DNA of 64,000 nucleotides from the NCBI GenBank assembly GCA_036768485.1, contig JAVLUZ010000223.1:4481893-4545892 (forward strand), given 5' to 3'. Position 1 is the first letter of the stretch; every line of letters starts with the position of its first letter. This DNA is from Mermis nigrescens (taxonomy: Eukaryota > Nematoda > Enoplea > Mermithida > Mermithidae). The position numbers and the translations under genes are program-made. Positions 25,231 to 63,189 of this stretch are shown piece by piece. The notes below the pieces were generated by a model. The model did not search any database, had not been told where the DNA came from, and saw only the letters and a list, made by a program, of their open reading frames with translations.

Positions 25231-25490
25231 CATACCTGGGCGTGGGGGTTTGGGGGGTATGCACCCCCAGAAACCAAAACACCCCCACCCTCAGAAACCA
25301 AAATACCTCTCCAGAATTCAATTTTTAAAATTTTTTTTATTTTTTTCGCAATTTTTTTGATGCCAATGGATAGTGCTCGATGAGAAACGTCGAAAAATGG
25401 TGTTTTTTCGCCATACCACCATTTTTAGGGTCATTTTTTGACCTTCAAAAATCTTGCACCCCCCCAGAATTTTGTTGATGCCCACGTATT
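25231..25490 (+). mobile_element. Family A MITE, full-length form
   Basis: CATACCTGGGCGTGGGG..GATGCCCACGTAT with all interior hallmarks (GATGCCAATGGATAGTGCTC; TTTTTCGCCATACCACC). The flanks do not show a duplication, so one end may have changed. Confidence 0.8.
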
Positions 25491-25784
25491 GTTGTGATAT
25501 TCTACAGCATATCAAGTTATGCTGAGATGCTTGCTATTACCAAACCGCACTACTGCATTAAAAGTTTAAACCACTTTTGCGGCCTGATTTATGCGGATTA
25601 AATTCAAAAGAAAACCGAAAATTTAAATGAAAAAGAGTATAGTTTCCGTTTCCGGCGTTTACCCATCATTTCCGTTTCCATTTCCGGATTTTACCCACCC
25701 GCGGTTAATGACCCAATTAAATAATGCAGTCAAAAACGACTCGTTTGTCATCAAATTAATTTCAAAGAGATATAGGTACGACCT

Positions 25785-26938: not shown

Positions 26939-27181
26939 GTCAGTATGTACGTAATACTAAAGTAATAGCATTCTCAGACGGATAAAGTTTTTGCAACCAC
27001 TTTCTTGTGTGAGTAGTTAGGCGTGTTTCCCTAGGGCGCAACGTTATAACATAGCCTGTGTTATAGCATAGGCGGAGGGGCTCAGAATCTGCGCCCTGGC
27101 TTTTCTCAGGGCGCAAGAATTGGGCTTGCCCGGTCCTGCCCGGGGAGGGGCGCGCACCAGCCCGGGGCCAGGGGTTCAGGG

Positions 27182-27443
27182 CACATCTGGGCGTGGGGGA
27201 GGGTTTGGGGGTATGCACCCCCCAGAAACCAAAATACCCCCCCAGAAATCAAAATGCCCCCTCCAGAATTCAATTTTTGAAAATTTTTTTCGTTTTTTTC
27301 GCAATTTTTTGATGCCAATGGATAGTGCTTGATGAGAAACATCGAAAAATGGTGTTTTTATCGCCATACCACCATTTTTAAGGCCATTTTTTGACCTTCA
27401 AAAAAATCTTGCACCCCCAGAATTTTCTTGCTGCCCACGTATG
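27182..27443 (+). mobile_element. Family A MITE in the left arm of the foldback; empty site in the right arm
   Basis: CACATCTGGGCGTGGG..GCTGCCCACGTATG, flanked by GTTCAGGG and GTCCAGGG (27,174-27,181; 27,444-27,451). The right arm carries the uninterrupted site with a single GTCCAGGG (minus strand, 36,993-37,000). This proves element boundaries and the 8-bp duplication and shows insertion after the arms were paired. Confidence 0.93.
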
Positions 27444-27459
27444 GTCCAGGGCCAGGGAG

Positions 27460-27525
27460 GGGAAATTTCCACGGGGCAAATTTCCATGGGGCAAATTTCC
27501 ATGAGGGAAATTTCCATGGGGGAAA
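27460..27525 (+). repeat. 17-bp tandem repeat AAATTTCCATGGGGC
   Basis: About four units of AAATTTCCAYGGGG(C/G). The inverted counterpart lies at 36,918-36,990 in the other arm. Confidence 0.8.
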
Positions 27526-27589
27526 ACTTGAAATAACTATAACTCAAGAACCAGCACTCAGATCAGGCTGAAATTTTCTCAGGTTGTTA

Positions 27590-28330
27590 AGTATATGCTA
27601 GGTATGATATATACAAAATTTTAGCGCGCAACCTACAGTATACAGCATTAGTTTACACTTTTGCATAACTCGAGAACCAATGACCGGATTTTGGTCAAAT
27701 TTTCAGCATATGATGTATATAGGCGGGGCATGCTGCGCACAGAAGTTTAGCGCGCAGTCTACAGTATACCAATTTACTTTACACTTTCTCATATAGCACT
27801 GTATCTCAAGAACTATAGGGCGGATTTAGCTCAAACTTTCAGGGTAAGATATATAAATTGTTTGCTGCGCTATGTACAAAATTTTAGCGCGCAGTCTACA
27901 GTATACCACTTTACGTTACACTTTCTCGTATAGCACTCTATTCCAAGAATCACTAGCCGGATTTTGTTCAAATTTTCAGACTATGACGTATAAACCGAAG
28001 CTGTGCTATGTACAGCATTTTAGTGCGCAGTCTACAGTATACCAGTTTACTTTACACTTTCTCATATAGCACTATATTCCAAGAAACACCAGCCGGATAT
28101 TGTTCAAAATTTTAGAATATGACGTATAAACCTTAGCTGTGCTATGTACACAATTTTAAAACGCAGCATACAGTATACTAATTTACTTTACACTTTCTCG
28201 CATAGCACTATATTACCAGAACCGCTAGCCGGATTTTGTTTAAATTTTCAGGATATCACATATTAAGCTTAGCTTTCCTATGTACAAAATTTTAGCACAC
28301 GACCTACTATATGCTGATTTTTTATTTGCA
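27590..28330 (+). repeat. ~125-bp tandem array in the left arm
   Basis: About six diverged units, each with TTTTAGCGCGCAGTCTACAG, TTTACTTTACACTTTCTC, a 'TAGCACT.TATTCCAAGAA' block and 'AGCCGGATTTTGTTCAAATT'. The inverted copy occupies about 35,990-36,880. Confidence 0.8.
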
Positions 28331-28624
28331 TTGTCTTTATAATGCTTGATTTTTTAGCAGTACCTGTCTTATGATGCCATTAGGGATTATTTTTGCCAAA
28401 AAACGAGCAACTAGTATAGGCAAACATTGCTTCAAATTTAATTATCATGCTATTTTGAGCTTCTCAAAGTTTATCAGAAAACGCCCGAAAAAGGGCGATC
28501 TTTGCCTGCTGTTCAACTTGTGGTAATTTTTAAAACCTGAGCTAGCGTTTACTTTATGAACCTCCACACAAAATTTATTAATGAACACGTAACTTCATCC
28601 ATGTCATCAGTATTGATCTAAAAA

Positions 28625-29757
28625 TTAGCTAAGTTTGGAATATTTTTTGTAAAGTTTGGAATATTTTTTGTAAAGTTTGGAATATTTTTTGTAAAGTTTG
28701 GAATATTTTTTGTAGAATTTGGAATATTTTTTGTGAAGTTTGGAATATTTTTTGTAAAGTTTGGAATATTCTTTGTAAAGTTTGGAATATTTTTTGTAAA
28801 ATTTGGAATACTTTTTGTAAAGTTTGGAATATTTTTTGTAAAATTTTTTAATAAACTTTACATGCTTAAGCATAGTACTTTTGTAAAGTTTGGAATATTT
28901 TTTGTAAAGTTTGGAATATTTTTTGTAAAGTTTGGAATATTTTTTGTAAAGTTTGGAATATTTTTGTAGAATTTGGAATATTTTTTGTAAAGTTTGGGAT
29001 ATTCTTTGTAAAGTTTGGAATATCTTTTGTAAAATTTGGAATATTTTTTTGCAAAGTTTGGAATATTTTTTGTAAAATTTGGAATAAAGTTTACATGCTT
29101 AAGCATAGTACTTTTGTAAAGTTTGGAATATTTTTTGCAAAGTTTGGAATATTTTTTGTAAAGTTTGGAATATTTTTGTAGAATTTGGAATATTTTTTGT
29201 AAAGTTTGGGATATTCTTTGTAAAGTTTGGAATATCTTTTGTAAAATTTGGAATATTTTTTTGCAAAGTTTGGAATATTTTTTGTAAAATTTGGAATAAA
29301 GTTTACATGCTTAAGCATAGTACTTTTGTAAAGTTTGGAATATTTTTTGCAAAGTTTGGAATATTTTTTGTAAAGTTTGGAATATTTTTTGTAAAGTTTG
29401 GAATATTTTTTGTAAAGTTTGGAATATTTTTTGTAGAATTTGGAATATTTTTCGTAAAGTTTGGGATATTCTTTGTAAAGTTTGGAATATCTTTTGTAAA
29501 ATTTGGAATATTTTTTTGCAAAGTTTGGAATATTTTTTGTAAAATTTGGAATAAAGTTTACATGCTTAAGCATAGTATTTTTGTAAAGTTTGGAATATTT
29601 TTTGCAAAGTTTGGAATATTTTTTGTAAAGTTTGGAATGTTTTTTGTAAAGTTCGGAATATTTTTTGTAAGGTTTGGAATGTTTTTTGTAAAGTTTGGAA
29701 TATGTTTTGTAAAGTTTGGAATATTTTTTGTCAAATTTGGGAATTGTTTTGTAAAGT
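28625..29757 (+). repeat. 21-bp minisatellite with a higher-order period
   Basis: The unit is GTAAAGTTTGGAATATTTTTT (21 bases), roughly 50 copies. A spacer with ACATGCTTAAGCATAGTA recurs at about 28,860, 29,095, 29,308 and 29,572, giving a higher-order unit of about 210-265 bases. The long frames on both strands (up to 223 codons, KYSKLYK-type repeats) arise from the 21-base period being divisible by three. Confidence 0.9.
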
Positions 29758-30224
29758 GTCAAATTTTATATATCTAATCTGCATTTCTCAAGCATCGTTG
29801 ACTCTATTTTATATGCCCGGTGCAACGCATGCTCCTCTTTTGCACCTGTAAGGATTGATTTTTCGCTTGTGAACACTATAAAGGTCACATCACGAAATTT
29901 GTAGACTAATCCATGAATCTGTTCTACTTCATACATTCATTTCCTTATCGTCAGTTGATAAGATTTGCAAAGATTTATGCGGATCCCTCAAGTTGCCAAA
30001 CCTGCAAACATATGAGGTTTCACCTTTAAATCATCTTTTTTAGTATATAATGCATTAACACGCCAAGAAAACGGCGATCTATGCCTGCTGTTTAACTAGG
30101 GGGTGGGAATTCTTAAGCCCTGAGGCTAGGGATTACTTTGCAAACCTTCACGCATAAGCGATTGATGAATACATAACTTCATCTGTGTCATCAGTATGGA
30201 TCTAAAAATTTCTAACGCTTCAAA

Positions 30225-31220
30225 AATTTTTTGTAAAGTTTGGAATATTTTTTTGTAAAGGGTAGAATATTTTTTGTAAAGTTTGGAATATTTTTTGTAA
30301 AGTTTGGAATATTTTTTGTAGAAGTTTGGAATATTTTTTGTGAAGTTTGGAATATTTTTTGTAAAGTTTGGAATATTCTTTGTAAAGTTTGGAATATTTT
30401 TTGTAAAATTTGGAATATTTTTTGTAAAGTTTGGAATATTTTTTGTAAAATTTGGAATAAAGTTTACATGCTTAAGCATAGTACTTTTGTAAAGTTTGGA
30501 ATATTTTTTGTAAAGTTTGGAATGTTTTTTGTAAAGTTTGGAATATGTTTTATAAAGTTTGGAATATTTTTTGTCAAATTTGGGAATTGTTTTGTAAAGT
30601 GTCAAATTTTATATATCTAATCTGCATTTCTCAAGCATCGTTGACTCTATTTTATATGCCCGGTGCAACGCATGCTCCTCTTTTGCACCTGTAAGGATTG
30701 ATTTTTCGCTTGTGGACTAATCCATGAATCTGTTCTACTTCATACATTCATTTCCTTATCGTCAGTTGATAAAATTTGCAAAGATTAATGCGGACCCCTA
30801 AAGTTGCCAAACCTGCAAACATATGAGGTTTCACCTTTAAATCATCACTTTTAGTATATAATGCATTAACACGCCGAGAAAAGGGCGATCTATGCCTGCT
30901 GTTTAACTAGGGGTGGGAATTCTTAAGCCCTGAGGCTAGGGATTACTTTGCAAACCTTCACACATAAGCGATTGATGAATACATAACTTCATCTGTGTCA
31001 TCAGTATGGATCTAAAAATTTCTAAAGTTTCAAAAATTTTTTGTAAAGTTTGGAATATTTTTTGTAAAGGGTAGAATATTTTTTGTAAAGTTTGAAATAT
31101 TTTTTGTAAAGTTTGGAATAAATTTTGCTTGTTTAAGCATAGGAATTTTGCTAAGTTTGGAATATTTTTTGTTAAGTTCGGGAAATTTTTTGTAAAATTT
31201 GGAAAATTTCTTGCAAAGTT
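30225..31220 (+). repeat. Further 21-bp arrays around a duplicated 410-bp segment
   Basis: Arrays at about 30,225-30,600 and 31,030-31,220 flank the segment 30,601-31,020, whose near-identical copy is 29,758-30,200 (both start TCAAATTTTATATATCTAAT). The right arm has only one copy of this segment (34,915-35,335). Confidence 0.85.
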
Positions 31221-32913
31221 TGGATAATCTTCATTTAATATGGCATTGCTCCAGGATTGCTGACAAATTTTGTAGGCTATACATACACTAGCATACAGAG
31301 AATGCAGAAAAATGACAAAAACTCGACAATGGTCAATATCCCGAAATGATCTACTTGAATAAAGTCATGTTCCTCACAGTATAAAATGCGTGATTAGATT
31401 TAAATTTGGAAAATTGCATGTATTTTCTGCACGTACACAAATGGCTTAGTGTTTGTCTCATAGCCATGGAATTTCATTGATATTTATGTATGGTTTGCTT
31501 CAGCCTGTCATATAATTTCTCAAATACCGTGTGAAACAAACATAGTTCTTTCCACAAAGTAAATGAATCAAATGAGTCATGCAAAATCTAGCCATATTTT
31601 ATCAGAGATTGTAGAGTATATGAATAGACTATGCAAAATTATCATGCTTCTTTGTGTTTTGAAGTAATTTTTGACAAATATACCCCAAATTTGAAGTAAA
31701 AATTATAGAAAATTGCATGAAATTTAGAAATTTGGGCAAGTTAATTCACAGAAAACTTCCGCCTCTTTGATAGAGGAACTCCAAGACTTCAGTACTTTCC
31801 AACTATTTTCTACATATTTTTACCCTCCTACAGAAGATTTCTATCAAAAAGCTAGGGGGCTATGATATTAATAGAGAGGGTACATGTTTGATAACTTTGA
31901 TATATGCAGCTTCTGCTGGATTTCCCAACAGCTTCTGAGGTATAAGCCAATGAAATAATAATATAATAATAATATAATTATATCCAGCTATTGCTTAAAT
32001 TTAAGAAAGATAGCTTTTTTGATAGGTTTTTTAACATTTTAACACTGTAAGCTTCTTGAGACTGGAGCAATGGCCGAAAAACTCTTCTGTACTAGTGTTA
32101 TAAGTACAATGCATCAGCTTGCGGGTAAACTGGAATTGTCGGCTGTTTTAGTACTTAAGTAAAAACTTGGAAAAAGCAATCCAACAAGTCAAAATGGCTC
32201 TTTATTCTGAAATAAGGCACAATTTGTGCTCTGAGGAGCACCCCATTAGGAGTGAATCCTGCTGCAGACACTGCCGAACATCAAGTAAATCAGCTCATGC
32301 ATGAATTAAATTTACCCGATGTCTGATGAAAACAGAAATTCAAGCAAAAAGTGCAGATAATTTTATTTCTGTTGTGTGCACTCATACTTTGTGTGCTATT
32401 ACATATTAGAGGAAAATAGTCAAATACTGTATCTTTGTCTTGAAAATATTATGCTAAGTTCTGAAAACTTCTCAATCCATCCAAGGGTTTGTGCCTCAAA
32501 CCATAAATAAACATACAGAAAATAAGTAATTTTCGTAGTTTATCCACATTGAGTAGATGCATGCTTTCCCATGTGTTTTTTAAGCAAATAACTGACTAAG
32601 GTGCTTCATCTTTATGACAATTTTATCATTTGTTACACCAAACAAAAATAATATTTACTATCCTCTCTTATTTTTTAGCTAAATGTAGAGCTATTTATGC
32701 AAAGATGCTAATTTATCCTAATTTTCACACTAGATTCTAGCATAATTTGGTATGTCTTGATCCTAGATATATAGTAGGGGTAATCTGAAAAGGGTCAAAA
32801 TTGAGCTTTTATTAGGGCTTAAGCCCATACAATACCAATCTACTAATTTTTCAGAATTTGTTTTTACTCTATTGATTTTAAAATATGCATGACCTCATTC
32901 AAGCTATATTAGT

Positions 32914-33030
32914 TTTATTTTATTTTTATATTTTATCTTATCTTATTTTATTTTATTTTCATATTTTATTTTATTTTATTTTATTTTATTTTATTTTCAT
33001 ATTTTATCTTATTTTATTTTATAAAACTAA
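32914..33030. repeat. AT-rich loop of the giant palindrome
   Basis: Runs of TTTTA/TTTTATTTTA between the two arms, bounded by AAGCTATATTAGTTTTATTT and its inverted copy. This is the centre of symmetry. Confidence 0.85.
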
Positions 33031-34709
33031 TATAGCTTGAATGAGGTCATGTATATTTTAAAATCAATAGAGTAAAAATAAATTCTGAAAAATTGGTAGA
33101 TTGGTATTGTATGGGCTTAAGCCCTAATAAAAGCTCAATTTTGACCCTTTTAGATTACCCCTACTATATATCTAGGATCAAGACGTACCAAATTATGCTA
33201 GAATCTACTGTGAAAATTAGGATAAATTAGCATCTTTGCATAAATAGCTCTACATTTAGCTAAAAAATAAGAGAGGATAGTAAATATTATTTTTGTTTGG
33301 TGTAACAAATGATAAAATTGTCATAAAGATGATGCACCTTAGTCAGTTATTTGCTTAAAAAACACATGGGAAAGCATGCATCTACTCAATGTGGATAAAC
33401 TACGAAAATTACTTATTTTCTGTATGTTTATTTATGGTTTGAGGCACAAACCCTTGGATGGATTGAGAAGTTTTCAGAACTTAGCATAATATTTCAAGAC
33501 AAAGATACAGTATTTGACTATTTTCCTCTAATATGTAATAGCACACAAAGTATGAGTGCCACAACAGAAATAAAATTATCTGCACTATCTGCTTGAATTT
33601 CTGTTTTCATCAGACATCGGGTAAATTTAATTCATGCATGAGCTGATTTACCTGATATTCGGCAGTGTCTGCAGCAGGATTCACCCCAATGGGGTGCTCC
33701 TCAGAGCACAAATTGTGCCTTATTTCAGAATAAAGAGCCATTTTGACTTGTTGGATTGCTTTTTCCAAGTTTTTACTTAAGTACTAAAACAGCCGACAAT
33801 TCCAGTTTACCCGCAAGCTGATGCATTGTACTTATAACACTAGTACAGAAGAGTTTTTCGGCCATTGCTCCAGTCTCAAGAAGCTTACAGTGTTAAAATG
33901 CTAAAAAGACCTATCAAAAAAGCTATCTTTCTTAAATTTAAGCAATAGCTGGATATAATTATATTATTATTATATTATTATTTCATTGGCTCATACCTCA
34001 GAAGCTGTTGGCAAATCCAGCAGAAGCTGCATATATCAAAGTTATCAAACATGTACCCTCTCTATTAAAATCATAGCCCCCTAGCTTTTTGATAGAAATC
34101 TTCTGTAGGAGGGTGAAAATATGTAGAAAGAGTTGGAAAGTACTGAAGTCTTGGAGTTCCTCTATCAAAGAGGCGGAAGTTTTCTGTGAATTAACTTGCC
34201 CAAATTTCTAAATTTCATGCAATTTTCTATAATTTTTAGTTCAAATTTGGGGTATATTTGTCAAAAATTACTTCAAAACACAAAGAAACATGATAATTTT
34301 GCATAGTCTATTCATATACTCTACAATCTCTGATAAAATATGGCTAGATTTTGCATGACTCATTTGATTCATTTACTTTGTGGAAAGAACTATGTTTGTT
34401 TCACACGGTATTTGAAAAATTATATGACAGGCTGAAGCAAACCATACATAAATATCAATGAAATTCCATGGCTATGAGACAAACACTAAGCCATTTGTGT
34501 ACGTGCAGAAAATACATGCAATTTTCCCAAATTTAAATCTAATCACGCATTTTATACTGTGAGGAACATGACTTTATTCAAGTAGATCATTTCGGGATAT
34601 TGACGATTGTCGAGTTTTTGTCATTTTTCTGCATTCTCTGTATGCTAGTGTATGTATAGCCTACAAAATTTGTCAGCAATCCTGGAGCAATGCCATATTA
34701 AATGAAGAT

Positions 34710-35687
34710 TATCCAAACTTTGCAAGAAATTTTCCAAATTTTACAAAAAATTTCCCGAACTTAACAAAAAATATTCCAAACTTAGCAAAATTCCTATGCT
34801 TAAACAAGCAAAATTTATTCCAAACTTTACAAAAAATATTTCAAACTTTACAAAAATATTCTACCCTTTACAAAAAATATTCCAAACTTTACAAAAAATT
34901 TTTGAAACTTTAGAAATTTTTAGATCCATACTGATGACACAGATGAAGTTATGTATTCATCAATCGCTTATGTGTGAAGGTTTGCAAAGTAATCCCTAGC
35001 CTCAGGGCTTAAGAATTCCCACCCCCTAGTTAAACAGCAGGCATAGATCGCCCTTTTCTCGGCGTGTTAATGCATTATATACTAAAAGTGATGATTTAAA
35101 GGTGAAACCTCATATGTTTGCAGGTTTGGCAACTTTAGGAGTCCGCATTAATCTTTGCAAATTTTATCAACTGACGATAAGGAAATGAATGTATGAAGTA
35201 GAACAGATTCATGGATTAGTCCACAAGCGAAAAATCAATCCTTACAGGTGCAAAGAGGAGCATGCGTTGCACCGGGCATATAAAATAGAGTCAACGATGC
35301 TTGAGAAATGCAGATTAGATATATAAAATTTGACACTTTACAAAACAATTCCCAAATTTGACAAAAAATATTCCAAACTTTATAAAACATATTCCAAACT
35401 TTACAAAAAACATTCCAAACTTTACAAAAAATATTCCAAACTTTACAAAAGTACTATGCTTAAGCATGTAAACTTTATTCCAAATTTTACAAAAAATATT
35501 CCAAACTTTACAAAAAATATTCCAAATTTTACAAAAAATATTCCAAACTTTACAAAGAATATTCCAAACTTTACAAAAAATATTCCAAACTTCACAAAAA
35601 ATATTCCAAATTCTACAAAAAATATTCCAAACTTTACAAAAAATATTCCAAACTTTACAAAAAATATTCCAAACTTAGCTAATTTTT
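34710..35687 (-). repeat. 21-bp arrays in the right arm
   Basis: Inverted counterparts of the left-arm arrays (34,710-34,910 and 35,336-35,687), separated by the single 410-bp segment. Fewer repeat units than in the left arm. Confidence 0.85.
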
Positions 35688-35989
35688 AGATCAATACTGA
35701 TGACATGGATGAAGTTACGTGTTCGTTAATAAATTTTGTGTGGAGGTTCATAAAGTAAACGCTAGCTCAGGTTTTAAAAATCCCCACAAGTTGAACAGCA
35801 GGCAAAGATCGCCCTTTTTCGGGCGTTTTCTGATAAACTTTGAGAAGCTCAAAATAGCATGATAATTAAATTTGAAGCAATGTTTGCCTATACTAGTTGC
35901 TCGTTTTTTGGCAAAAATAATCCCTAATGGCATCATAAGACAGGTACTGCTAAAAAATCAAGCATTGTAAAGACAATGCAAATAAAACA

Positions 35990-36990
35990 TCAGCATATAG
36001 TAGGTCGTGTGCTAAAATTTTGTACATAGGAGAGCTAAGCTTAATATATGATATCCTGAAAATTTAAACAAAATCCGGCTAGCGGTTCTGGTAATATAGT
36101 GCTATGCGAGAAAGTGTAAAGAAAATTAGTATACTGTATGCTGCCTTTTAAAATTGTGTACATAGCACAGCTAAGGTTTATACGTCATATTCTAAAATTT
36201 TGAACAATATCCGGCTGGTGTTTCTTGGAATATAGTGCTATATGAGAAAGTGTAAAGTAAACTGGTATACTGTAGACTGCGCACTAAAATGCTGTACATA
36301 GCACAGCTTAGGTTTATACGTCATATTCTGAAAATTTGAACAAGATCCGGCTGGTGATTCTTGGAATATAGTGCTGTATGATAAAGTGTAAAGTACACTG
36401 GTATACTGTAGACTGCGCGCTAAAATTCCGTACATAGCACAACTAAGGTTTGTACATCATATCCTGAAAATTTGAACAAAATCCGGCTGGTGATTCTTGG
36501 AATAGAGTGCTATACGAGAAAGTGTAAAGTAAACTGGTATACTGTAGACTGCGCGCTAAACTTTTGTACATAGCGCAGCAACAATTTATATATCTTACCC
36601 TGAAAGTTTGAGCTAAATCCGCCCTATAGTTCTTGAGATACAGTGCTATATGAGAAAGTGTAAAGTAAATTGGTATACTGTAGACTGCGCGCTAAACTTC
36701 TGTGCGCAGCATGCCTCGCCTATATACATCATATGCTGAAAATTTGACCAAAATCCGGTCATTGGTTCTTGAGTTATGCAAAAGTGTAAACTAATGCTGA
36801 TATACTGTAGGTTGCGCGCTAAAATTTTGTATATATCATACCTATCAAATACTTAACATCCTCAGAAAATTTCAGCCTGATCCCAGTGCTGGTTCTTGAG
36901 TTATAGTTATTTCAAGTTTTCCCCCATGGAAATTTCCCTCATGGAAATTTGCCCCATGGAAATTTGCCCCATGGAAATTTCCCCTTCCCT
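35990..36990 (-). repeat. ~125-bp and 17-bp arrays in the right arm
   Basis: Mirror images of 27,460-28,330, in the same order from the centre outward. Confidence 0.8.
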
Positions 36991-37169
36991 GGCCCTGGAC
37001 CCCTGGCCCTGGGCTGGTGCGCGCCCCCTCCCCGGGCAGGTCCGGGCAGGCCCAATTCTTGCGCCCTGAGAAAAGCCAGGGCGCAGATTCTGAGCCCCTC
37101 CGCCTATGCTATAACACAGGCTATGTTATAACGTTGCGCCCTAGGGAAACACGCCTAACTACTTGTGTG

Positions 37170-39470: not shown

Positions 39471-41015
39471 GTGAGCCGACATTATAGCGCAGCGACATTA
39501 GAGCGCAGTGACATTAGAGCGCAGCAACATTAGAGCGAGCGACATTAAAGCGCGCTACATTAGAGCGCGCGACATTAGAGCGCGCGACATTAGAGCGCGC
39601 GACATTAGAGCGCAGCCATAATAGATGTCTTTCACGTAACTTTACAAAACTTTTATGATAATAAATGGAAGAATTCGTCGGTTAAAGCTTCACGGACAAA
39701 ACGAGCATGCCTTTGAGAAAAGTCCCACTGTATATTACACTCGAGACAATTTGCAACGATTCATTTACTTTCCGATTCAGAATTGGATACGCTTTCTATT
39801 ATAACGGGACAAAGTTAAATACCTACGCATGAATATCTCGGTATCAGGTAGTGATAAATGCATGCGGTTTCCTTTGTTTTGTAAAGCAATGAACAGACTT
39901 TTGTATTATTTCTTTACTTTCTGCTTGAGTTGTACACTGGGTGAATCAGTGGACGTACGAAAGTAGAAATTTTGATTTTTTTATTTACCTTTGGAAAAAG
40001 GACAGTTACTTTTGAAGCAGTAGGTTTTGTATAACGCCATTATACCCTAATCACTTATTTTCTTGACACAGATTACGGTATTCCTTTTCACAATTTTTAA
40101 AATTGTGCGCATTTACTGTAACTTGTGCAAATCAAGCGTGAAATTTATTGCTGCAGTAAACAATCATAAAACTGCAGTTAATAAGCAAAAGATCAAAATT
40201 TGTGTAAACTTATTCTGCATTTCTGTGTCAAGAAAACAAGTGAAAAGGGTTTCCATTAGAAAGTGCATGAAAAGCTACAAATAATGTCCTAAAATGACAC
40301 CCTTACTACCGTAGTTTTAGAGCTGTAGGTGTTAGACTACAGATCAGTCTATTCCATTGCACAAGAGATCATTAAATAACGTCAAAATTTTTTCAAATTA
40401 GTAACACCTACAACTTTAAAACTAGTATAGCAAGGGGTCGTTTGTAGACACTGTTTTGCAGAGCATTTATGTCACTTACGAGCACACCTGGGCGTGGAGG
40501 GTTTGGGGGGTATGCACCCCCCAGAAATCAAAATAACCCCCCCCCCCAAATCAAAATACCCCCCCAGAATTCAATTTTTGAAATTTTTTTTCGTTCTTTT
40601 CGCAATTTTTTGATGCCAATGGATAGTGCTTGATGAGAAACGTCGAAAAATTGTGTTTTTATCGCCATACCACCATTTTTAAGGCCATTTTTTCGACCTT
40701 CAAAAAATCTTGCACCCCCCCCAGAATTTTCTTGCTGCCCACGTATGCTAACGAGCCACTTCTTAACCAAACAAGAAATTTAACTGATTTACGTAGTGTA
40801 TGTTAGGTGTATTTTTGTACACCAATTTTTAGAAACAAAAAGTAACAAATTTTTTTTGGGGAAGGAAAAGTCTATGTCTGCCTCCATGACGTACCATTGT
40901 AACTGCACTTTAATGTCGGCGCTCTAATGTCGCGCGCTCTTATGTCGCTGCGCTCTAATGTCGTTGCGCTCTAATGTCGGCGCTCTAATGCCATGCGCTC
41001 TAATGTCTGTGTGCC
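39471..41015. mobile_element. 1,545-bp element with inverted sub-terminal repeats and 10-bp target duplication
   Basis: Flanked by GTTCTGTCTG on both sides (39,461-39,470; 41,016-41,025). At the left end about nine units of 'GCGCGCGACATTAGA' (16-18 base period, 39,478-39,617) and at the right end about six units in inverted orientation (CGCTCTAATGTCG, about 40,915-41,008). A 9-10 bp duplication with sub-terminal repeats fits a Mutator-like (MULE) non-autonomous element. No transposase seen. The 73-codon frame at 40,063 is unrecognised. Confidence 0.82.
40483..40747 (+). mobile_element. Family A MITE nested in the MULE-like element
   Basis: CACACCTGGGCGTGG..GCTGCCCACGTATG, flanked by CTTACGAG and CTAACGAG (one mismatch). 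Confidence 0.88.
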
Positions 41016-46828: not shown

Positions 46829-47325
46829 CACACGCGGGCGTGGGGGTATGCACCCCCTAGAAGGCCGAATGTCCCCATAAATCAAGTTTTGAATTGTTTT
46901 TGTTTTTTTTTCGCGATTTTTTTTATGCTTATGGATAGTGCTCGATGGGAAACGTTAAAAAATGGCGTTATTTTGCCATATCACAATTTTTATGACAATT
47001 TTTTGACCTTTAGAAAATCTTGCATATCCCCCATCGATACCTGGGCGTGGGGGTTTTGGGGGTATGCACTTCCCGAGAAACCAAAATATCCCCCAGAAAT
47101 CAAAATATCCATCCCAGTATTCAATTTTTGAAATTTTTTTGTTTTTTTAGCAAATTTTCGATGCTAATGGATAGTGCTCGATGAGAAACACTGAAAAATG
47201 GTGTTTTTTCGCCGTAGCACCATTTTTAGGGCCATTTTTGACCTTTGAAAAATCTTGCACCTCCCAGATCTTTGGAGCTGCCCACCTATGCCCCCATCCC
47301 AGAACTGTGGTGCTGCCCGCGTGTG
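46829..47325 (+). mobile_element. Family A MITE interrupted by another family A MITE
   Basis: The outer copy runs 46,829-47,035 and resumes at 47,299 with CCAGAACTGTGGTGCTGCCC and ends GCGTGTG. The inner copy (47,036-47,290; GATACCTGGGCG..CCCACCTATG) is flanked by a perfect CCCCCATC duplication (47,028-47,035; 47,291-47,298). Confidence 0.85.
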
Positions 47326-61774: not shown

Positions 61775-63189
61775 AGGCTCATTCATACTTCATCCGATCC
61801 GACATCGGACGACACCGCATGTTGCATCCTGTCGGACGCATGTCGGACAGAGTTGGATGCGACTCTGTCCGACATGCGTCCGACAGGATGCGACATGCGG
61901 TGTCGTCCGATGTCAGATCGAGCATCGAATCCGACTTTCATTCATACTTCATCCGACATCTTCCGACTAAAAATCAATATTTTCGGCGCAACAAACATTG
62001 ATGTTTTTATATTGTCTCTCTGTCGAACAGCGTTTGTATTATAACTGGGCGTGGGGGGTTGGGGGCATACGTGGGCAGCAAGAAAATCCTGGGGGGAGGG
62101 GTGCAAGATTTTTTGAAGGTCAAAAAATGGCCTCAAAAATGGTGGTTTGGCGAAAAAAACACTATTTTTCGACGTTTCTCATCGAGCACTATCCATTGGC
62201 ATCAAAAAATTGCGAAAAAAACGAAAAAAAAATTTTCAAAAATTGAATTCTGGGGGGGGGGGGGCATTTTGATTTCTGGGGGGGATTTTGGTTTCTGGGG
62301 GTATTTTGGTTTCTGGGGGGGTGCATACCTCCCAAATCCCCCACGTCTAGGTGTGGTTGGGGGTATGTAACCCCCAGAAACTAGAATACCCCCCAGAAAC
62401 CGAATACTCCCCCAGAATTCAATTTTTAAAAATTATTTTTGTTTTTTCCTTAATATTTTGATGCCATTGGATAGTGCTCGATGAGAAACGTCGAAAAATG
62501 GTTTTTTTCGCCATACAACCACTTTTAAGACCATTTTTTGACGTTTATAAAATTTTTCACCCCCTCCAAAAATAAAAATTAAATGCTGAAAGTATCGAAG
62601 TTCGTTTCATGCGCCAATTTATTTAAACTTATTAATTTATTTAAAATTATTTCCCACAAATATGGATGTTCTTTAACAGCTATGATTAATAACTCCGTAG
62701 TGACGTCGTCAAAATCGCCATTGGCCATTTGCAATTAATTAAATTTCAAACCTGAAAAATACAATAAAATGAATTGACTGCAACAATAAATAGTACAAAA
62801 TAAACGAGACACGATATGCCACAGCGCTTTTAAACGACTAGTACAGAGAAACAAATTAATCAAAAATTTAAAGCTTGAAAAATGGAATAGCACAATATAA
62901 ACAAGGCGTGCAATGCGCTGCTACATGTCACGCCAATCTTCCTACACGCTGTAGTTTAAATTTCATGTGTGTCGGACGGACGAAAGTTGAAATCAACTCA
63001 ACTTGTCCGTTCCGACAAAAAAATCGCATTGTAAAACAGATTATGACGTCATGCGCAAAGAAAAGTCGGACGCGTGTCGCACGATGTCGGATAATGTCGG
63101 ACTCATGCCGGTGCGTGTCGGAGTGGATTTGTCAATTTTCGCATTCCGACACCAAATCGGACGGAGTCGGACGAAGTATGAATGGGCCT
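61775..63189. mobile_element. 1,415-bp element with PIF/Harbinger-type ends
   Basis: Ends AGGCTCATTCATACTTCATC and the inverted AGGCCCATTCATACTTCGTC, flanked by TTA on both sides (61,772-61,774; 63,190-63,192). A 3-bp TTA/TAA duplication with this kind of end is typical of PIF/Harbinger. The left part contains a ~100-base near-perfect palindrome (61,811-61,911) of GTCCGAC/GTCGGAC units. A cluster of family A MITEs sits inside. No transposase. Confidence 0.82.
62042..62575. mobile_element. Nested family A MITE cluster (end fragment, inverted copy, direct copy)
   Basis: CTGGGCGTGGGGGGTTGGGG (left fragment) is followed at 62,067 by CATACGTGGGCAGC, an inverted full copy to about 62,353 (CCCCACGTCTAGGTGTG). 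A direct copy without its left terminus runs from about 62,355 to 62,575. Confidence 0.75.

Follow-up and report, generated by a model that had tools for sequence, protein, structure and literature searches.

The window element and its two arms

The stretch analysed here (the window) is 64 kb of the genome of the mermithid nematode Mermis nigrescens, positions 4,481,893-4,545,892 of its contig in an assembly of 524 Mb and 860 contigs, and it holds at 27,012-37,163 an element of 10,152 bp, 97% of which lies within a symmetric inverted repeat. The element has the termini AGTAGTTAGG and CCTAACTACT (AGTAGT...ACTACT), is flanked on both sides by a perfect 6-bp target duplication, TGTGTG (27,006-27,011 and 37,164-37,169), and folds at a T-rich loop of 104 bp (32,918-33,021). 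Its limits, its AG...CT ends, the duplication and a loop of about 0.1 kb had all been called correctly in an original prediction made from the letters of the window, as had the presence in the arms of three kinds of tandem array, with units of 15, 136 and 21 bp. A chance origin of the match between the arms is ruled out by its length of kilobases.

The outermost 171 bp of the left arm (27,012-27,182, plus strand), which include the AGTAGT end, recur in the genome and are 97% identical to the outer end of the right arm (36,992-37,163, minus strand). The 136-bp array occupies 27,684-28,296 in the left arm (plus strand) and 36,011-36,758 in the right (minus strand). A stretch that includes the 21-bp arrays (28,365-30,055, plus strand) also occurs inside gene-bearing Polintons (Mavericks), where it lies beside the integrase gene and a gene for TATA-binding protein. 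The inner part of the left arm (31,230-32,917, plus strand), with the inner part of the right arm at 33,022-34,706 (minus strand), is common to about 20 palindromes and has no match among 14 gene-bearing or same-end loci. The element had been thought to contain no gene, and it indeed contains no intact one; what remains is three broken stretches related to TATA-binding protein, two in the left arm (29,772-30,059 and the TATA-binding-protein-like 30,709-30,891, both minus strand) and a counterpart in the right arm (35,048-35,320, plus strand). The list of open reading frames (ORFs) and comparisons with Polinton ORFs confirmed that polymerase, integrase and capsid frames are missing from the element; for the family B DNA polymerase (PolB), neither an ORF nor a match was found there when the Polinton ORFs and the ORF at the PolB end of relatives were compared. 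Scanning the window for Rfam families and tRNAs gave no matches.

The description of a near-perfect palindrome holds for the inverted repeat and fails for the equality of its arms. In a global alignment the arms are 98.1% identical over 4,041 columns, with 78 substitutions (32 transitions and 46 transversions). Present in the left arm only are a 269-bp insertion (27,183-27,451, plus strand) and about 1.6 kb of additional tandem or duplicated sequence (28,694-30,321, plus strand), while the right arm has one 136-bp unit more than the left. The 269-bp insertion is one copy of a repeat of about 265 bp dispersed through the window, and the right arm provides its empty site, so the insertion postdates the separation of the arms. 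Compared with that empty site, the left-arm copy is bounded by an approximate duplication of 7-8 bp. The same repeat lies in at least 10 places between 7,082 and 62,564, in both orientations (for example at 25,236-25,492, 40,484-40,747, 47,041-47,290 and 62,066-62,301).

A family of palindromes with Polinton ends

A genome search with the outer 171-bp end yielded 1,162 first-look candidates, and all 40 that were scored match, including the window's own two ends. Twenty stretches covering 17 places were fetched, and both outer flanks could be read in 14 elements. The 6-bp duplication is perfect in 11 of these and different in each (TGTGTG, CATATT, ATGTTC, GGTATT, AGTGTA, CATGTG, CCGGCT, TTCAAG, GCTGAA, GCTATA and CACGCC), and the flanks of C221 agree at five of six positions; for C838 and C131 the right end alone was found in the stretches read. 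Searching with the inner arm (31,400-32,900) gave 178 candidates, 40 of them scored, and 68 matches, mostly inverted pairs separated by a short gap, of which 24 were counted by eye. With one locus that appears on five contigs collapsed, the mirrored C311/C162 pair presumed to be one locus and the window added, the same palindrome occupies about 20 places. The original prediction of a non-autonomous class, with foldback copies elsewhere between other 6-bp flanks, is thereby borne out. We found no description of palindromic Polintons in the open-access literature, among the matches listed.

Seven elements were examined whole. The inverted repeat makes up nearly all of L009 and L011 (share of length 1.00 each), L026 (0.99) and the window element (0.97), 0.91 and 0.78 of the gene-bearing palindromes L012 and L013, and 0.07 of L010, the lowest share; because the seven were chosen by likeness to the window's end, the proportion of palindromes among them is not a genome rate. 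Relatives with one arm also exist. In C510 a single arm gives way to sequence that does not resemble it, and at about 41,495,942-41,502,710 of C61 (L068, L069) one-arm units are arranged head to tail and terminated by an inverted terminal repeat.

Palindromes evidently trouble the assembly: the five contigs C798, C714, C473, C420 and C64:8.85M carry one palindrome locus with a common flank, in three of them (C798, C420 and C64:8.85M) runs of N replace the left flank, and the five probably represent an assembly duplication at the palindrome. Such behaviour is what might be expected if hairpin or untrimmed long reads had been folded into contigs. We nevertheless regard an artefact of this kind as highly improbable for the window element, in which 78 substitutions and several indels separate the arms, the outer flanks are unequal and the duplication is intact, and for a family in which 11 of 14 readable duplications are perfect.

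The ends and the 6-bp duplication had been read as Polinton-type, and elements with the same ends elsewhere in the genome do carry Polinton genes: integrase, protease, a capsid-like protein and the N-terminal part of PolB. Their order, assembled by eye from L013, L015 and L019, is end, an ORF of about 264 amino acids, integrase, 21-bp array, TATA-binding-protein gene, ATPase-like gene, capsid-like gene, protease, a 260-amino-acid ORF and end. Pfam matches above cut-off in same-end elements comprise rve (E 3.6e-13 and 3.5e-15), Chromo (9.7e-9), Peptidase_C5 (1.4e-5) and TBP (1.3e-40). The rve integrase was found in L012 and L019, with homologues of up to 71% identity, and the adenovirus-type protease in L010; the packaging ATPase is weak and below the Pfam cut-off. 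The capsid-like protein has 612 homologues, two of which, when scanned, scored 24.2 and 24.7 bits against a double-jelly-roll model with a cut-off of 27; a scan of viral_contigs with this protein returned no relative. Comparison with PHROGs gave weak matches only. Integrase, protease, ATPase and capsid-like protein are all absent from the window element. A 268-amino-acid ORF matches Polinton PolB in its N-terminal portion (38% identity over 256 amino acids, E 1.9e-64). Genes for PolB are numerous in other parts of the genome (1,062 candidates, 80 scored), and none was found in 14 control genomes.

The position of the window element within this group follows from its arms. The broken stretches are 55-70% identical in amino acids to the C-terminal half of the Polinton-borne TATA-binding-protein gene, and an arm runs from the terminal stretch through the stretch between integrase and TATA-binding-protein genes to a broken C-terminal piece of the latter. 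Set against the gene-bearing elements, this order makes the arm resemble a PolB-side end from which the PolB piece and the integrase have been lost. Its sequence marks the window copy as derived by deletion from gene-bearing Polintons with the same ends.

Two features of the gene-bearing elements deserve separate mention. The N-terminal PolB domain is a separate ORF of about 264-274 amino acids (for example L012:1297-2100, minus strand) that retains an open frame in many copies, at 65-75% identity (143 genome matches), as though it were maintained independently of the polymerase domain. The presence of a TATA-binding-protein gene in Polintons of this genome (L019:2226-2768, minus strand; also L013, L015 and L028) was unexpected; its product has six homologues at E<=0.001, the best at 56%, and no report of a Polinton with such a gene was found in the literature, among the matches listed.

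Comparison with described elements places the family in the same way. Vertebrate Mavericks are described as having (AGT)2//(ACT)2 ends and 6-bp duplications, and in the passages available intact elements have terminal repeats of 46-1,447 bp with a mean of 402 (PMC8097293). The window element shares the ends, the duplication length and the possession of terminal inverted repeats, and its same-end relatives have an rve-chromo integrase, an adenovirus-type protease, a capsid-like protein and the N-terminal PolB domain. It differs in being nearly all inverted repeat and in lacking any intact gene, with only pieces of the TATA-binding-protein gene left; having both ends and interior in common with gene-bearing Polintons, it has the character of a non-autonomous Polinton derivative. 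Arms of this kind, long, inverted and with tandem arrays inside, are also what would be seen in a foldback transposon of the FB, Galileo or Mutator type that had come to the same architecture by coincidence. Galileo, a member of the P superfamily, is reported to have 7-bp duplications and arms of up to about 1.26 kb, the longest in copies without transposase, according to the part of the account available (PMC3573991). The present family has 6-bp duplications, arms of 4-6 kb and Polinton ends; its ends, duplications and interior stretches are common to elements with a Polinton integrase, and a broken Polinton-borne gene lies inside the window element, all of which makes a foldback transposon without Polinton kinship a most implausible source.

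Arms that change together

To compare arms across the family, about the inner 1 kb of the arm was aligned for 19 copies (38 arms; 821 columns), and alleles present in two or more arms were counted in 17 copies; C714 was excluded because it duplicates C798, and C48 because its left arm is rearranged. Away from the fold (776 columns), the derived alleles confined to both arms of a copy number 89, those confined to one arm 5 and mixed ones 39; in the full set of 821 columns the corresponding numbers are 95, 19 and 46. When the arms were randomly re-paired in 300 shuffles, alleles confined to both arms of a pair averaged 2.7 and reached at most 40, against the 95 observed. The excess of 89 over 5 demonstrates that the two arms of a copy evolve together. 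C221, C798 and C714 (the latter two one locus) show no arm differences in the compared columns, and the arms of C838 differ by about 0.1%. A tree paired the arms within ten of the 19 copies (C221, C61, the window, C64:16.22M, C599, C311, C553, C131, C210 and C48) and left three unresolved (C798, C714 and C838). Gap runs point the same way, 35 being common to both arms and 16 limited to one, with many of the 35 being a single subfamily difference counted repeatedly; in C221 both sides bear an additional end segment. Had the palindrome arisen a single time and thereafter transposed intact, with no exchange between its arms, the opposite of these allele counts would be predicted; the counts rule that history out, the nearest-distance grouping being the weaker evidence.

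Observation supplies the ends, the duplications, the family, the parentage and the co-evolution of the arms, and the least that we infer beyond it is that the palindromes passed through a one-arm stage. The account that we consider probable is that the element is a non-autonomous Polinton derivative in which one internally deleted end was copied head to head onto itself. In linear, protein-primed, strand-displacing replication one end would suffice to start copying; a strand bearing that end could halt early and fold back on itself (snap back), and copying from the fold would create the second, inverted arm. Since the product has an intact end on each side, it should be replicable and integrable by Polinton enzymes acting in trans, and it may be integrated by a Polinton integrase so supplied, much like a snap-back defective-interfering genome. 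The differing 6-bp flanks suggest such mobilisation in trans, and the polymerase and the replication step would be those of a Polinton. Repeated passages through a one-arm hairpin would keep the arms alike, and separate decay would begin once a copy is inserted. A hairpin origin, with one end copied onto itself, had been offered in the original prediction as an alternative to a non-autonomous class; it is better seen as the likely route by which the class arises than as a competing reading.

The main rival to snap-back copying is repair between the arms, as in the model for Galileo: after excision or breakage one arm templates the other, repair synthesis runs beyond the terminal repeat and extends the inverted repeat inward until its halves meet, and gene conversion later keeps the arms alike, with no snap-back replication required. 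This process predicts the sharing of derived bases within a copy equally well, and the existence of the gene-bearing L013, with its partial arms (share 0.78), is in keeping with it; inward growth of the inverted repeat has been proposed for Galileo and expansion has been reported for Polintons, in the passages available (PMC3573991). The lack of arm differences at C221 and at the C798/C714 locus fits copying in one step better, as do near-complete palindromes whose halves join at short loops, and ongoing conversion should have removed the 269-bp and 1.6-kb differences between the window's arms. Arms alike at birth and later differences left uncorrected favour snap-back copying over repair without deciding between them, and we hold repair to be the less likely process, though one to be taken seriously.

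Fold points and the origin of the palindromes

The loop varies between copies in sequence and position, and by eye the loops differ among the copies printed, the repeated locus excepted. Three of 20 palindrome centres (C64:16.22M, C51 and C798) contain, at E 1e-8 or better, part of the terminal repeat (within its positions 32-85), and by the same threshold positions 32-88 are retained at the inner end of the one-arm relative C510. Inside this fragment lies a self-complementary stretch of 21 nt (repeat positions 34-54), a possible site of fold-back. These fragments, and the tandem one-arm units at C61:41.49-41.50M, would also be expected had two ordinary Polinton derivatives been joined head to head by insertion or recombination. 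That origin is improbable: most centres (16 of 20) have no terminal-repeat match at E 0.01, the printed centres contain, by eye, no complete end, and changes are common to both arms within a copy.

The same process appears to have acted on other members of the group. L012 and L013 have PolB-end and integrase sequence in both arms and fold at different points. Searches with the PolB-end ORF (2,300 candidates, 143 scored matches) and with the ORF of the other end (2,187 candidates, 147 scored matches) revealed, by eye, eight inverted pairs and one, respectively, a bias toward one end (Fisher p 0.016, by pairs) that is suggestive only, because the two queries differ in conservation. The eight pairs include two further subfamilies (72-75% identity), in which the inner flanks are inverted copies at 99.4% (470 bp) and 99.0% (476 bp). 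Palindromes have thus arisen independently in other Polinton subfamilies.

Several results weigh against the snap-back account. At E 0.01, 16 of the 20 centres show no terminal-repeat fragment, and in C456 the fragment is only 14 nt. The sharing between arms is incomplete, as the 39 mixed alleles indicate; the tree fails to pair the arms within six of the 19 copies (C268, C670, C73, C79, C255 and C11), nearest distance strictly pairs them in only four (C221, C311, C553 and C64:16.22M), and in the remaining 15 at least one arm lies no farther from an arm of some other copy than from its own partner. The innermost 2 kb of the arm match none of the 14 loci compared, and the same-end stretches read hold the N-terminal piece of PolB only, with no complete PolB-bearing Polinton found among them. 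Duplications of 6 bp, which the original prediction expected of every copy, are perfect in 11 of the 14 elements and absent from the flanks of C473 and C714, both contigs of the one repeated locus; these two flank pairs are the sole instance of a result that the original prediction had named as refuting it. Finally, replication and transposition are read from sequence rather than directly observed, and free hairpin or linear molecules would be a prediction of the account.

Viruses offer parallels for an end copied onto itself. Adenovirus symmetric recombinants (SYREC) have one end present twice around a palindrome and are products of a protein-primed polymerase, as Polintons would be; these genomes are not integrated transposons, unlike the window element. 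The nearest documented parallel appears to be the snap-back genomes of adeno-associated virus, described in the text available as self-complementary, symmetric or asymmetric, with one end duplicated and with helper functions supplied in trans (PMC8235507). The window element likewise has one end duplicated around a palindrome. The difference is that the former are packaged parvovirus molecules and the latter are chromosomal insertions with target duplications, for which copying in trans is our reading.

Two smaller inverted structures lie elsewhere in the window. Arrays of a 15-bp unit (CGACATTAGAGCGCG) at 39,477-39,613 and 40,903-41,007, inverted and about 1.3 kb apart, are perhaps a second, smaller foldback element, and at 61,795-61,920 about 126 bp form an almost perfect inverted copy of themselves (94%).

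To our knowledge, the replication of Polinton DNA has not been observed directly. It has been argued by analogy with adenoviruses and tectiviruses, in the passages available (PMC8097293). A large set of chromosomal palindromes, in which changes are common to both arms, folds vary and 6-bp duplications are intact, offers testable traces of that replication in the form of fold-back points, end bias and one-arm stages. We suggest, tentatively, that the Polintons of this genome regularly shed snap-back genomes that become heritable, self-renewing satellites and possibly defective-interfering parasites, every new copy going through a single-arm hairpin, in which case the palindromes would be a fossil record of Polinton replication. 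Such a gene-less satellite class would be an addition to the Polintons that parallels the snap-back defective genomes of viruses, and its copies show that very long palindromes persist in a chromosome.

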